Shown one piece after another: positions 2,108 through 6,517 of a DNA stretch of 53,980 nt. Under the pieces are notes generated by a model. That model saw only the letters and a program-made list of their open reading frames with translations, made no database searches and was not told the origin of the DNA. The translations under genes and the position numbers were made by a program. Location: contig WGLY01000034.1 of the NCBI GenBank assembly GCA_016125335.1, positions 1 through 53,980 on the forward strand, written 5' to 3'. Each line of letters starts with the position of its first letter. Position 1 is the first letter of the stretch. The DNA comes from Frankiales bacterium. GTDB taxonomy: Bacteria; Actinomycetota; Actinomycetes; S36-B12; CAIYMF01.

Positions 2108-3433
2108 TCACGCCGTGCGGCCGCCGGGCCCGGGAGCGCCCGTGCCGGCGCTCTCGGCGTCGGGTGCGTGGGTGTGCCCGTCGTCGTGCAGGCGGCCGTC
2201 GGCGTGCACGTGGGCGGTGTCCGGCAGCGCGACCTCGTCGACGTCGACGCCGGGATCGGCAGTCTCCGTCGCCTGCGCGGAGTCCGTGCCGAGGGTGGTC
2301 ACCGGCTTGAGGTTCTGCGACCACTTGTGCTCGATCCGGCCGAATCGCCACACGAGGATCGCGACCAGCCAGGTGAGCACGAAGAGCCCGACGATGACGA
2401 AGCCGACGTTGTTGAGGTCGATCCCCCCGATGGCCGCGAGCGGACCGCTGGTGATGCCCAGCTTGTCGGTCACGATCGACACCACCTCGATGAGGCCGAT
2501 GCCGAGGGCCACCGCCACGGACAGGCCGGTGATGACGATGTTGTAGTAGATCTTGCGCACCGGCTGGGAGAAGGCCCAGCCGTAGGCGAAGATCATGAAC
2601 GCGCCGTCGATCGAGTCCAGCAGGCTCATGCCCGCCGCGAACAGGGTCGGCAGCACCAGCACCGCGTACCAGGGCAGCTGGAACGCCGCGGCGCCGCCCG
2701 CGAGCACCAGCAGCGACACCTCGGTGGCCGTGTCGAACCCGAGCCCGAACAGCAGGCCCACCGGGTACATGTGCCGCGGCTTGCGCACGGCCTTGGTGAC
2801 GCCGCCGAGCAGCCGGTTCATGAAGCCGCGCTGCGAGAGGTGGTGCTCGAGCTCCACCTCGTCGAAGTGGCCCTCGCGCATGGCCCGGAAGACGTTGACG
2901 ATCTTCGCCAGCACGACGAGGTTGATGATGCCGATGAGGATCAGGAACGTGCCCGAGACCGAGGTGCCGATGAGCCCGAGCGTCGTCTGGAGGGTGGAGT
3001 TGCCGTCCTCGACCTGACCGGCCAGCGACTTGACGCCGATGCCCAGCAGGAAGCAGAGGCCGAACACGACGCTCGAGTGGCCGAGGGAGAACCAGAAGCC
3101 CACCGACACCGGCTTCTGCCCGTCGCTGAGCAGCTTGCGCGTGGTGTTGTCGATCGCGGCGATGTGGTCGGCGTCGAACGCGTGGCGCATGCCCAGGGTG
3201 TAGGCGGTGACGCCGATGCCGATGCCGAAGATCCCCGAGGAGCCGAGGTCGAAGCCCTGCGGGGCCACGACGCCGATGAGGGTGCCCCAGCCGACGACGT
3301 GCAGCAGCAGGACGAAGCCGGCCATCGCCGCGAGCACGATCCACTCGGTGCGGCCGAGGGAGATGCGGCGGTTGGGGAGCGCCTCGTCGACGAGGGTGGG
3401 GCCGGTGGGGGCCGCGACCGGGCGTGAGCTCAC
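2108..3433 (-). CDS. HoxN/HupN/NixA-family nickel/cobalt permease
   Basis: A 441-residue secondary transporter for Ni2+ or Co2+ in the inner membrane. All family signatures are visible: RHAFDADHIAAIDN in the second helix (the metal-binding H-x4-DH region), FWFSLGHSSVV, GLGFDTATEV and GMSLLDSIDG. About eight hydrophobic segments are present. The last ~60 residues form a cytoplasmic-looking Asp/His-rich tail (HVHADGRLHDDGHTH) that could bind metal; this is not a family constant. No urease or hydrogenase gene is in the window. The GTG at 3433 follows TAACCT by 6 bases, and a Nur-like box overlaps the upstream region. Ni versus Co specificity cannot be told from sequence. Confidence 0.95.
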   Translation of the reverse strand: MSSRPVAAPTGPTLVDEALPNRRISLGRTEWIVLAAMAGFVLLLHVVGWGTLIGVVAPQGFDLGSSGIFGIGIGVTAYTLGMRHAFDADHIAAIDNTTRKLLSDGQKPVSVGFWFSLGHSSVVFGLCFLLGIGVKSLAGQVEDGNSTLQTTLGLIGTSVSGTFLILIGIINLVVLAKIVNVFRAMREGHFDEVELEHHLSQRGFMNRLLGGVTKAVRKPRHMYPVGLLFGLGFDTATEVSLLVLAGGAAAFQLPWYAVLVLPTLFAAGMSLLDSIDGAFMIFAYGWAFSQPVRKIYYNIVITGLSVAVALGIGLIEVVSIVTDKLGITSGPLAAIGGIDLNNVGFVIVGLFVLTWLVAILVWRFGRIEHKWSQNLKPVTTLGTDSAQATETADPGVDVDEVALPDTAHVHADGRLHDDGHTHAPDAESAGTGAPGPGGRTA

Positions 3434-3614: not shown

Positions 3615-4094
3615 ATGACCGAGCGACTCGCCCCCGGGGACCCCGCACCGCCGCTCGGGCTCGTGGACGACCAGGGCACCCGGCACACCTGGAAGCAGCA
3701 CGCCGGCGAGCGGGTGGTGCTCTACGCCTACCCCGCCGCCATGACGCCGGGCTGCACCACGCAGGCGTGCGACTTCCGCGACTCGCTCGACGCCCTGGCC
3801 GCGGCGGGCATCACGGTGCTCGGCATCTCCCCGGACTCGCCCGAGAAGCTCGCGCGGTTCCGCGAGCGTGACGCGCTCACCTTCCCGCTGCTGTCCGATC
3901 CGGACCGCTCCGTGCTCACGGCGTACGGCGCCTACGGCGAGAAGCAGCTCTACGGCAAGACGGTCACCGGGGTGATCCGCTCGACGTTCGTGGTCGACGT
4001 CGACGCACGCGGGCGCGCCGTGGTCGAGCGGGCGATGTACAACGTGAAGGCGACCGGCCACGTGGCCAAGCTGCGCCGCGAGCTCGGCGTCTGA
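3615..4094 (+). CDS. bcp: Thiol peroxidase, BCP/PrxQ-type peroxiredoxin
   Basis: A 159-residue cytoplasmic peroxiredoxin that reduces H2O2 and organic hydroperoxides using thioredoxin-like donors. The active-site motif PGCTTQACDFRD carries the peroxidatic Cys47 and a second Cys52 five residues later, the atypical two-Cys arrangement of the PrxQ group. The usual F-x-x-R/P motif appears as YPAAMTPGC. Length is normal for the family. A GAGAGGA ribosome site precedes the ATG at 3615. It is convergent with the persulfide-response genes and separated from them by a hairpin. Confidence 0.95.
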   Translation: MTERLAPGDPAPPLGLVDDQGTRHTWKQHAGERVVLYAYPAAMTPGCTTQACDFRDSLDALAAAGITVLGISPDSPEKLARFRERDALTFPLLSDPDRSVLTAYGAYGEKQLYGKTVTGVIRSTFVVDVDARGRAVVERAMYNVKATGHVAKLRRELGV

Positions 4095-4110
4095 CCCCAC
4101 CCCCACCGAT

Positions 4111-4165
4111 GTCACTGGTGAAAGGGTCGCTTCCCGGGCTGGGAGACGACCGTTTCACCAGTGAC
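4111..4165. terminator. Long hairpin between convergent genes
   Basis: GTCACTGGTGAAA at 4111-4123 pairs perfectly with 4153-4165, and inner segments (GGTCG with CGACC, CTCCC-type pairs) extend the stem around a GGGCT loop. It lies between the ends of bcp and the CstR-like gene and probably terminates transcription from both sides. There is no strong U-tract, which is common for actinobacterial terminators. Confidence 0.7.
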
Positions 4166-4172
4166 GTGCGGC

Positions 4173-4442
4173 TCAGGCCAGGGACAGGAAGAGCTTCTCG
4201 AGGCGGGCGCGGTCCATGGGGGCGTCGTCGCCCCGGGACTCGGCCTCGATGCACGCGGTGAGACCGCACGCCACGATGGTGAAGGCGGCCCGGTCGATGG
4301 CCTTGGAGGCCGCCGAGAGCTGGGTGACGATGTCCTCGCAGTCCCGGCCGGCCTCGAGCATGGACAGGACGCCGTCGATCTGGCCGCGGGCGCGGCGCAG
4401 CCGGGTGGCGACGGCGGTGGAGGACTCGGCGTCGAGCTGCAT
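4173..4442 (-). CDS. CsoR/RcnR-family repressor, CstR-like (persulfide type)
   Basis: An 89-residue all-helical DUF156 repressor. The family pattern RLRRARGQIDGVLSMLE is followed by Cys35 and Cys64, the two conserved thiols. The copper-binding His of CsoR (between them, Mtb His61) is replaced by Gly60, and an extra Cys59 is present. Loss of His with both Cys kept is the pattern of CstR, which senses per- and polysulfides by forming a Cys-Cys link. The neighbouring CoA-disulfide reductase/rhodanese gene and a CsoR-type operator fit this role. ATG 4442 has an AGGAG site; an in-frame GTG at 4502 overlapping the upstream stop would add 20 residues. Persulfide rather than metal sensing is inference. 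Confidence 0.85.
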   Translation of the reverse strand: MQLDAESSTAVATRLRRARGQIDGVLSMLEAGRDCEDIVTQLSAASKAIDRAAFTIVACGLTACIEAESRGDDAPMDRARLEKLFLSLA

Positions 4443-4466
4443 GGGGTTCTCCTGCTCGGGGGCGGC

Positions 4467-4485
4467 TGTTGCGTCAGGTGCAACA
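4467..4485. repeat. Small inverted repeat before cstR-like start
   Basis: TGTTGC-N7-GCAACA is a perfect 6-base dyad in the 57-base gap between the reductase stop and the repressor ATG. It could be an intercistronic hairpin tuning relative expression, or an accidental feature of the N-terminal extension coding sequence. Confidence 0.4.
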
Positions 4486-4498
4486 ACGTCGACGGTGC

Positions 4499-6199
4499 TC
4501 ACGATGCCACCACCGCCCGCTCGATCCTGCCCGGGAGCAGGGTGAGGTCGCGGCGCGCCGCCGCGAGCGTCTTCAGGCCGCCGTCCAGGGAGGCGCTGTC
4601 GACGCCGTGCCCCACCAGCGCCCGGTGCGCCAGGTAGGACCGGAACCCGCTGGCGCAGAACAGCCGGACGGGCCGGCCGTCGGCCGCTGCCAGCACCTCG
4701 TCGAGGCGGTCGCGCAGCGCCGTGTGCGGGACGTTGATCGCGCCGGGCAGCGTGCCGCCGGCGTACTCGCGGGCCGACCGGACGTCCACGAGCAGCACCG
4801 AGCCGTCGGTGACGGTCTCGAGGTCGGCCTCGGTCCAGAGCACCACCGTGCCGTCCAGCACGTTCTGCGCGAGGAAGCCGGCCATGTTGACCGGGTCCTT
4901 CGCGCTGCCGAACGGCGGCGCGTAGGCCAGCTCGAGCTCGGCGAGGTCGTCGACGGTCATCCCGGCGCGCAGCGCCACGGCGAGCACGTCGATGCGCTTG
5001 TCGACGCCGGCCCGGCCCACGGCCTGCGCGCCCAGAAGCCGCCCCTCGGGGGTGAACAGCACGGCCAGGTGCACCTGGTGCGCCCCGGGGTAGTAGCCGG
5101 CGTGGTGCCCCGGGTGCAGGTGCACCACCGTGTGCTCGACGCCGGCGGCGGTCAGCTTGCGCGAGGTCGGTCCGGTGACCGCCGCGGTGAGGCCGAACAC
5201 CTTCACGATCGCGGTGCCCAGCACGGGGCGCGAGGCCACCTCCCGGCCCATGATCGCGTCCGCGGCGGTGCGGCCCTGGCGGTTGGCCGGGCCCGCGAGC
5301 GGGACCACGCCGGGCGCGCCGGTGACGGCGTCGTGCACCTGGATCGCGTCGCCCACCGCCCAGATGAACGGGTCGCTGGTCTGCTGCGACGGCGAGACCA
5401 CCACCGCGCCGTGGGGCGAGAGCTCGAGGCCCGCGTGGCGGGCGAGGTCGGTCGAGGGCCGGACGCCCACGCCGAGGAGCACGACGTCGGCGGGCACGCG
5501 GGAGCCGTCCGCGAGCACGACGTCGACCGCGTGCTCCGTCGCGGAGTCCTCCACGCCGGCGAGCCCGACGCCCACGCGGACGTCGACGTCGTGGGCGCGC
5601 AGCTCGTCCTCCACGAGGGCGGCCATCTCGGCGTCGAGGGCGGGCAGCACCTGCGGCGCGAGCTCGATCAGCGTCACGTCGAGCCCGCGGTGCCGGAACG
5701 CCTCCACGGTCTCGAGCCCGATGAACCCGGCGCCGACGACCACCGCGCGGCGCGCGCCCGCGTCGAGCATCTCGCGCAGGACGTCGGCGTCCGGGACGGT
5801 CCGCAGCGTGCGCACCTGGGGGCGGTCCAGGCCGGGCAGCGGCGGCACGATCGGCTCGGCACCGGTGGCCAGCACCAGCGCGTCGTAGGAGAGGTCGTAG
5901 GCCGACCCGGCCTCGAGGTCGCGCACCACCACGGTGCGGGCGGCGCGGTCGAGGGCCACCACCTCGTGGCGCACGCGCACGTCGAGGTCGAGCGAGCGCC
6001 GCAGGCTGCGCGGGGTGTGCAGGAGCAGCTTGTCGCGGTCGGCGATCTCGCCGCCCACGTGGTAGGGCAGCCCGCAGTTCGCGAACGACACGTCGTGACC
6101 GCGCTCGAGCACCACGATCTCGGCGCTCTCGTCGAGCCGGCGCAGCCGTGCCGCCGCCGACATCCCGCCGGCGACGCCGCCGACCACCACGATGCGCAT
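4499..6199 (-). CDS. CoA-disulfide/persulfide reductase with C-terminal rhodanese domain (CoADR-RHD)
   Basis: A 566-residue flavoprotein. The N-terminus has the FAD motif VVVGGVAGGMSAA and the diagnostic SFANCGLPYHVGG with the single redox Cys used by CoA-disulfide reductases. A second Rossmann motif VVVGAGFIGLE binds NAD(P)H, and YAPPFGSAKDPVNMAGF is the family dimerisation segment. From about residue 460 a rhodanese domain ends with the loop FCASGFRS, whose Cys carries a persulfide. Such fusions reduce CoA-persulfides or polysulfides. It is the first gene after a CsoR-family operator and is followed by the CstR-like repressor. Exact substrate (CoA disulfide, CoA persulfide, polysulfide) is undetermined. 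Confidence 0.92.
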   Translation of the reverse strand: MRIVVVGGVAGGMSAAARLRRLDESAEIVVLERGHDVSFANCGLPYHVGGEIADRDKLLLHTPRSLRRSLDLDVRVRHEVVALDRAARTVVVRDLEAGSAYDLSYDALVLATGAEPIVPPLPGLDRPQVRTLRTVPDADVLREMLDAGARRAVVVGAGFIGLETVEAFRHRGLDVTLIELAPQVLPALDAEMAALVEDELRAHDVDVRVGVGLAGVEDSATEHAVDVVLADGSRVPADVVLLGVGVRPSTDLARHAGLELSPHGAVVVSPSQQTSDPFIWAVGDAIQVHDAVTGAPGVVPLAGPANRQGRTAADAIMGREVASRPVLGTAIVKVFGLTAAVTGPTSRKLTAAGVEHTVVHLHPGHHAGYYPGAHQVHLAVLFTPEGRLLGAQAVGRAGVDKRIDVLAVALRAGMTVDDLAELELAYAPPFGSAKDPVNMAGFLAQNVLDGTVVLWTEADLETVTDGSVLLVDVRSAREYAGGTLPGAINVPHTALRDRLDEVLAAADGRPVRLFCASGFRSYLAHRALVGHGVDSASLDGGLKTLAAARRDLTLLPGRIERAVVAS

Positions 6200-6223
6200 G
6201 TCCGCTCCCGTCCTCGTCCGGAG

Positions 6224-6255
6224 CCATCAGGATACCCCTGGGGGTATCCTGATGG
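6224..6255. promoter_or_regulatory. CsoR/CstR-family operator
   Basis: Perfect 15-base arms (CCATCAGGATACCCC and its complement) flank a central TG. The core ATACCCC-TG-GGGGTAT matches the G/C-tract operators of the CsoR/CstR family. It lies 25 bases upstream of the reductase ATG, so the repressor encoded at the end of this operon would autoregulate it. Confidence 0.85.
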
Positions 6256-6341
6256 CGAACCGGGCGCGCGCGGATCCTTCCCGGCGACGCCGTCGTGCGC
6301 CGTCCCCGCCCGGACCGCCCGGCCGTACGACCCCGCCGCCC

Positions 6342-6347
6342 TAGGCT
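6342..6347 (+). promoter_or_regulatory. -10 element of tRNA-Leu
   Basis: TAGGCT lies 9 bases before the mature tRNA 5' end. No clear -35 is visible. Confidence 0.4.
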
Positions 6348-6356
6348 GACCACCGC

Positions 6357-6438
6357 GCGGACGTGGTGGAACTGGCAGACACGCAGGATTTAGGTTCCTG
6401 TGCTCCCGAGCGTGCGGGTTCGAGTCCCGCCGTCCGCA
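6357..6438 (+). tRNA. tRNA-Leu (anticodon UAG)
   Basis: A seven-base acceptor stem GCGGACG/CGTCCGC closes the molecule, with discriminator A at 6438. The anticodon stem CAGGA/TCCTG (from 6384) holds the loop TTTAGGT, so the anticodon is TAG at 6391-6393, reading CUA and possibly other CUN codons. A long variable arm (class II) and the TGCGGGTTCGAGTCCCGC T-arm are present. CCA is not encoded. Confidence 0.97.
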
Positions 6439-6517
6439 CGGGCTCGGGCGTCCGCTCGGCGGGCGCCGTACGCGCCCCCGCCGGGCCGGCGGGAGGGCGC
6501 TCGCGCAGACTGGGCGC

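Follow-up and report, generated by a model that had tools for sequence, protein, structure and literature searches.

In Streptomyces coelicolor, the repressor ScCsoR (SCO0620) binds the sequence ATACCn6GGTAT and is released from DNA when sulfane sulfur modifies Cys37, a response for which Cys66 is also needed; ScCsoR controls persulfide dioxygenase (PDO), TauE, rhodanese, and its own gene, a circuit of four genes with no sulfide:quinone oxidoreductase (SQR) or CoA-disulfide reductase (CoADR), and the protein has only two Cys (PMC7533328). In Enterococcus faecalis, CoAPR, a CoA-persulfide reductase with Cys42 and Cys508, is under the control of CstR (PMC9405070), and the site of copper-responsive CsoR proteins takes the form TAC-X9-GTA (PMC3902906). 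Here, we analyze a 53,980-nucleotide stretch of a Frankiales bacterium (contig WGLY01000034.1, assembly GCA_016125335.1; hereafter, the window), in which an 89-residue protein, P0001, is encoded next to a CoADR fused to rhodanese (CoADR-RHD). Comparison of genes, residues, and operator sites indicates that P0001 is very probably a CstR/ScCsoR-type, persulfide-responsive repressor of the CoADR-RHD operon and of five other operons, released by sulfane sulfur.

P0001 shares with ScCsoR an actinobacterial origin, two Cys residues 29 positions apart (37/66 in ScCsoR), and the 16-bp site ATACCn6GGTAT. It differs in having six sites, in predicted targets that also include SQR, CoADR-RHD, thioredoxin, an extracytoplasmic function (ECF) sigma factor, and a small Cys-rich protein, and in an additional cysteine, Cys59. 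The CstR proteins of Staphylococcus aureus, Streptococcus pneumoniae, and E. faecalis likewise combine the CsoR fold with Cys at the two sensor positions but come from Firmicutes, and in an alignment with P0001, the pneumococcal protein carries Asn at the position of Gly60 and Glu at that of Cys59. A third Cys has a precedent, as the structures of pneumococcal CstR are those of C9A mutants. CsoR of Streptomyces lividans (4ADZ) resembles P0001 in fold and in its G-tract operator with TAC/GTA ends but responds to copper and has a TAC-X9-GTA rather than a TAC-X8-GTA site; the second CsoR protein of our genome is of the S. lividans kind. A cluster in Bacillus licheniformis reportedly combines the repressor YrkD with sulfur-oxidation genes.

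The CoADR-repressor operon

On the minus strand, a palindrome is followed by the CoADR-RHD gene and then by the repressor gene, as the initial sequence-only reading had it. Conservation was assessed in nine same-genus orthologues and in 80 named loci, the best 80 of at least 556 confirmed relatives.

4173..4442, minus strand: CsoR-family repressor P0001, CstR-like, 89 residues; AGGAG ahead of the ATG; PF02583 at 3.3e-20; best Protein Data Bank (PDB) match 7mq1 at 1.5e-12
4338..4340, minus strand: codon of Cys35, sensor Cys at the start of helix 2; Cys in 80/80 named loci
4266..4268, minus strand: codon of Cys59, the extra Cys; present in 9/9 same-genus orthologues and 4/80 named loci
4263..4265, minus strand: codon of Gly60, at the position of His in copper CsoR; Gly in 79/80 named loci
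4251..4253, minus strand: codon of Cys64, second sensor Cys; Cys in 80/80 named loci
4499..6199, minus strand: P0002, 566 residues, predicted CoA-disulfide/persulfide reductase fused to rhodanese; only two Cys, Cys42 and Cys515
6223..6256, unstranded: perfect palindrome with 16-nt arms and a 2-nt centre, predicted operator of the CoADR-repressor operon
6232..6247, unstranded: 16-bp operator core ATACCCCTGGGGGTAT; distance to the CoADR start codon 32 bp; core shared with five other genome sites

P0001 belongs to the CsoR/RcnR (DUF156) family (PF02583, 72.7 bits against a cut-off of 22.8), and the nearest solved sequence is pneumococcal CstR, with weaker matches to the copper CsoRs 6ahx (1.6e-7) and Mycobacterium tuberculosis 2hh7 (5.3e-7), to InrS (2e-6), and to FrmR (4e-4). 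Its open reading frame bears out the residues first noticed: Cys35 and Cys64 are kept, Gly takes the position of the copper-ligand His, and Cys59 is added. The sensor pair aligns to the Cys residues of pneumococcal CstR, and in place of the Cys-His-Cys set of copper sensors, P0001 presents Cys35-Gly60-Cys64. FrmR proteins are marked by Pro2 together with Cys35; residue 2 of P0001 is Gln. An AlphaFold2 model built from 44 sequences (pLDDT 93.6) consists of three helices spanning residues 5–30, 35–69, and 78–88.

P0002 contains PF07992, PF02852, and PF00581, that is, an FAD/NAD reductase followed by a C-terminal rhodanese, each with one Cys. Across both domains, it matches 3nta, which we take to be Shewanella Npsr, B. 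anthracis CoADR-RHD (3ICR/3ICS), and E. faecalis CoAPR (8A56), and its Cys42 and rhodanese Cys515 are paralleled by Cys42 and Cys508 of CoAPR. It departs from these references in scoring below the CoA-disulfide reductase equivalog cut-off, and its substrate is a prediction.

An operator shared by six sites

The 34-bp palindrome at 6223-6256 is perfect, as originally described, although its 16-nt arms are larger than the 15 bases first claimed; the window contains a single copy, and none appeared in 100 shuffles. Its core, ATACCCCNNGGGGTAT (16 bp), has six mismatch-free matches in the 3.93-Mb genome, so that the proposed genome scan for further operators yielded five more exact sites. With up to three mismatches, 20 matches are found against 8 for the reversed pattern, and the looser ATACCN6GGTAT returns the identical six sites, with none for its reversed counterpart. 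Because of the six exact matches and the empty reversed control, the core is not a chance occurrence. All six sites lie 32–67 bp from start codons according to our own gene calls.

The outer nine base pairs of each arm set the window site apart: the other five sites of the genome and seven other CoADR sites of the genus have at most one contiguous outer pair (at the CoADR site of genome G002, 7/9 outer pairs match, though not contiguously). We therefore discarded the 34-bp palindrome as a general operator, and the functional operator is most likely the 16-bp core, a prediction from site comparison; the outer pairs may still be important at the window site alone. An extended perfect palindrome, with 11 pairs past the core, also occurs at the operator at L072:3394 in genome G009.

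The genes behind the six sites are as follows; the genes after the first in each row are placed in the same transcript by inference.

Site 1: before CoADR-RHD and the repressor
Site 2: before thioredoxin, two rhodaneses, a lipoprotein-like rhodanese, and a metallo-beta-lactamase (MBL)-rhodanese (PDO); a peroxiredoxin further on
Site 3: before a 38-residue Cys-rich protein, a zinc-finger-bearing ECF sigma factor, and TauE
Site 4: before a membrane protein with GCPVCNK, a 120-residue protein, and a methyltransferase
Site 5: flanked by a 55-residue Cys-rich protein and, on the opposite side, a NifX-like protein
Site 6: before SQR (PDB match to SQR at 8e-40) and a 73-residue protein

Recognizable sulfide or persulfide genes are thus found at four of the six sites (1, 2, 3, and 6), with none identified by name at sites 4 and 5; the MBL-rhodanese of site 2 matches 3tp9 and 3r2u. 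Genes were called with a codon-score caller, which performed poorly in the low-GC relatives G003 and G005, where tblastn was used, and which missed the small Cys-rich genes of our own genome, both recovered by protein search. The sigma factor gene of site 3 (L013:12376-13209, minus strand) carries a zf-HC2 (anti-sigma-like) zinc finger, a possible second layer of control.

The pattern recurs among relatives. In ten same-genus genomes, ATACCN6GGTAT occurs 50 times against once for the reversed pattern, 41 of the 50 with the exact strict core, and G007, the one member of this set without a repressor match (E limit 1e-12), is also without a site. CoADR-RHD adjoins the repressor in all nine Cys59-type orthologues of the genus, with a site upstream of CoADR in eight (the G003 contig starts at the gene; in G001, the site departs from the strict core at one position), and other sites recur before SQR, thioredoxin-rhodanese-PDO, sigma-TauE, and membrane-protein genes. 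Across 60 relatives, our own genome included, there are 219 sites against 12 reversed, and the mean number of sites is 4.33 in the 45 genomes with a repressor match versus 1.6 in the 15 without (Mann-Whitney p = 7e-4). Three of the genus genomes (G006, G008, and G010) encode second CstR-type paralogues (on C92, C153, and C190, respectively) that are 48–56% identical to P0001 and lie near PDO/TauE-type genes; these genomes keep the Cys59 type as well, and both proteins may read the same operators.

By analogy with ScCsoR and CstR, reduced P0001 would bind ATACCCCNNGGGGTAT before its own CoADR-RHD operon and the five others and block transcription. As persulfides or polysulfides rise, Cys35, together with Cys64 of the partner subunit, would be persulfidated or cross-linked through sulfur, and P0001 would leave the DNA. 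The derepressed cell would then make SQR, PDO-rhodanese, rhodaneses, thioredoxin, a TauE-type exporter, and CoA-persulfide reductase, activities likewise assigned from the characterized systems, and these would lower sulfide and sulfane sulfur. The persulfide-type assignment first proposed is well supported at the sequence level by the CstR-like residues, the CoADR-RHD partner, the operator type, and the sulfide/persulfide gene set, and the suggested link to mycothiol is in keeping with a pathway gene in the genome (MshC, 639.7 bits against a cut-off of 485.1).

Several observations weigh against this assignment. Sites are present in 7/15 genomes without a repressor match and absent from 4/45 with one, and some sites of the genus lie near no nameable sulfur gene (e.g., L078, L091). 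NCBIfam gives no CstR call for P0001, its RicR and FrmR models matching far below cut-off, and P0002 scores 449.3 bits against the cut-off of 578.8 of the CoA-disulfide reductase equivalog TIGR03385. Foldseek ranks pneumococcal CstR first but separates it poorly from InrS, CsoR, and FrmR (E 3e-3 to 8e-3); given these weak values and the close followers, the fold alone cannot decide the type of P0001. Metal-transport genes stand beside the CoADR-repressor operon, namely NicO in the window (PF03824, 315 bits) and in G010, CbiM in G004, and ZnuA in G009 (window 2108-3433, minus strand; L067:8260-9498; L066:3-314; L071:6826-7797). Finally, Gly-type repressors occur in an operon with copZ-copA behind a 2-nt-centre site with one mismatch (L031:1454-3243, L159:4967-7733), so a Gly in place of this His is not enough on its own to rule out copper genes among the targets.

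Cys59 and other candidate signals

Cys59 might make P0001 a different switch, either one whose thiols sense oxidants or mycothiol disulfide or one in which a second sulfur bridge forms. This residue is retained in all nine genus orthologues through changes between TGC and TGT codons, and it occurs in three places of a tree of 107 rows: the genus (support 100/99), a Mycobacterium gordonae pair, and a Dormibacterota metagenome-assembled genome (MAG). The tree calls for three changes, of which well-supported branches make two or more unavoidable, although it was built from few columns and has many open forks. However, the same nine orthologues are identical at 51 of 89 columns, which makes the conservation of Cys59 weak evidence, and among the named loci, residue 59 is Thr or Ser in 70/80 (Thr 38, Ser 32, Cys 4, Ala 2, Val 2, Asn 2), one of the four Cys rows (L099) being the G004 contig again. 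In addition, the continuous helix 35–69 of the model would place Cys35, Gly60, and Cys64 on one face and, for an ideal helix, Cys59 about 140° from Cys64. We consider a Cys59-based switch very unlikely. The third Cys beside the sensor site, to which the sequence-only reading drew attention, does exist and is conserved across the genus, but it replaces Thr/Ser and probably points away from the Cys35/Cys64 pair; it is probably a conserved lineage variant that is not essential to sensing, and most likely plays no essential part in the persulfide-responsive switch.

Cys59 as a mark of CoADR-linked repressors was also discarded. CoADR-RHD lies near the repressor in 5/80 named loci (L099, L101, L103, L110, and L116), some loci ending early, and L099 is the sole one with Cys59; the Actinotalea repressors L101 and L110 and that of the MAG locus L103 have Thr or Ser.

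A second alternative, a copper sensor in which the His ligand was lost and Cu(I) is bound by Cys35, Cys59, and Cys64, would account for three Cys near the site and finds encouragement in L031 and L159, where Gly-type repressors share operons with copZ-copA behind an equally spaced site. We regard it as very unlikely, as copper appears to have its own regulator in this genome. The only other PF02583 gene found encodes a canonical Cys-His-Cys protein that matches S. lividans CsoR (5e-34) and is followed by genes that we read as copZ- and copA-like. Its promoter contains TACCCC-CTA-GGGGTA, with a 3-nt centre and thus the TAC-X9-GTA form, so that within the genome nine bases separate TAC from GTA at the copper-type site and eight at the sulfur-type sites, and no copper gene was seen directly behind the six 2-nt-centre sites. 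The CoADR-linked repressors with Thr or Ser at 59 (L101, L110, and L103) also speak against this alternative.

The count of TAC-X9-GTA sites in itself proves nothing, since with up to one mismatch the reversed pattern has four places against two, both of the latter being exact; the copper reading of this site rests on its position ahead of csoR-copZ-copA and on its agreement with the form published for CsoR. The second such site (G000 C27:65034-65048; L200:4035) has a DUF4396 membrane-protein gene on one side and, on the other, a gene with no Pfam family. As general rules, 'Gly means sulfur' is weakened by L031 and L159, and their 8-base sites before copZ-copA speak against a simple division of 8 for sulfur and 9 for copper.

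A nickel/cobalt (RcnR/InrS-type) or formaldehyde (FrmR-type) regulator, to which the neighboring NicO, CbiM, and ZnuA genes and the closeness of the InrS fold to the P0001 model might point, is extremely unlikely, given that P0001 is without His ligands, that the one operator of the window is at 6232-6247 with none at NicO, that the type of transport gene varies between relatives while the six sites lead to other genes, and that no formaldehyde gene was among those read, no search having been aimed at such genes.

A small Cys-rich protein behind the operators

Sites 3 and 5 lead to members of a family of 37–75 residues with the motifs C-x4-C-x2-C, GCGxH, and C-x-C (or C-x-G-H), for which no Pfam or NCBIfam family was found at E 0.01 and no PDB sequence at E 1. 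Both copies in our own genome are preceded by an operator, 37 and 41 bp away:

G000 C21:55338-55502 (L181), minus strand: small Cys-rich protein, directly behind a CstR-type operator
G000 C1:13203-13316 (L180), minus strand: small Cys-rich protein, directly behind a CstR-type operator

Six further copies in the genus also lie behind operators (L068, L072, L081, L085, L088, and L089) but are not independent, because these loci were fetched around operators. Outside the genus, we collected 36 copies in 33 genomes from overlapping samples of 149 and 396 genomes of the phylum, comprising all 17 places outside our own genome in the first search and 19 new loci among the 30 retrieved in the second, which listed more places than these. 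Allowing up to two mismatches within 250 bp upstream, an operator is present at 13/36 (7/17 and 6/19) and the reversed pattern at 0/36; two of the 13 distances are long (159 and 221 bp). In six cases, the operator ends in the start codon of the small gene (GGTATG; L184, L185, L193, L194, L208, and L212), which suggests leaderless messages with the operator lying over the start.

The family also co-occurs with CstR-type repressors. Among the 149 genomes minus our own, a CstR-type match (E up to 1e-12) is found in 8/14 with the small protein (E up to 1e-5) versus 11/134 others (Fisher p = 3e-5), and in five of the eight (G097, G098, G144, G161, and G198), no more than about 3 kb separates the two genes. 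The small protein falls inside the fetched stretch of 18/80 named CstR loci, with an operator at 5/18 and the reversed pattern at 0/18; in an alignment of these 18 proteins, Cys2, Cys7, Cys10, Cys18, His21, and Cys35 are invariant. Overall, the family is present in 48/396 sampled genomes of the phylum, our own included. Counting against the link are the 23/36 outside copies without a nearby site and the 6/14 genomes that have the small protein without a CstR-type match. An AlphaFold2 model for the relative at L160 (18 sequences; pLDDT 74, pTM 0.46) is too weak to name a fold. Tentatively, this protein could be a dedicated component of the CstR regulon in Actinomycetota that is made on CstR release and serves as a sulfane-sulfur carrier or sink, or whose zinc-thiolate centre is repaired or tuned under persulfide stress, although we would sooner doubt this role than assume it.

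Other features of the window

Between the repressor gene and a convergent peroxiredoxin-like gene (3615-4094, plus strand), an inverted repeat at 4109-4166, noticed by eye, has the look of a two-way terminator. Scans for sigma-70 promoters and terminators over 6150-6500 returned nothing, a result that is uninformative for a GC-rich actinobacterium.

Implications

Novelty for an actinobacterial equivalent of the Firmicutes switches, which the sequence-only reading had considered of interest, finds no support: ScCsoR of S. coelicolor has already been demonstrated to be a sulfane-sulfur sensor (PMC7533328). In open-licence papers, covered mostly through titles and the starts of abstracts so that absence is unproven, we found none in which SQR or CoADR is a target of an actinobacterial CstR, and none on joint control of CoADR, SQR, and PDO by such a repressor or on the small Cys-rich protein. 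Since this type of switch is known from Streptomyces, the wider gene set and the small Cys-rich protein appear to be what is added here.

The comparison suggests that the ScCsoR/CstR switch, for which control of four genes has been proven in Streptomyces, has a wider predicted regulon in this bacterium, and that in a genus covered here by draft genomes, a complete route from sulfide to sulfite, comprising SQR, PDO, rhodaneses, thioredoxin, CoA-persulfide reductase, and an exporter, may stand under one switch. It also suggests a spacing rule for testing in this genome, TAC-X8-GTA for sulfur and TAC-X9-GTA for copper, and suggests that an unannotated family of small Cys-rich proteins is tied to the control of reactive sulfur.

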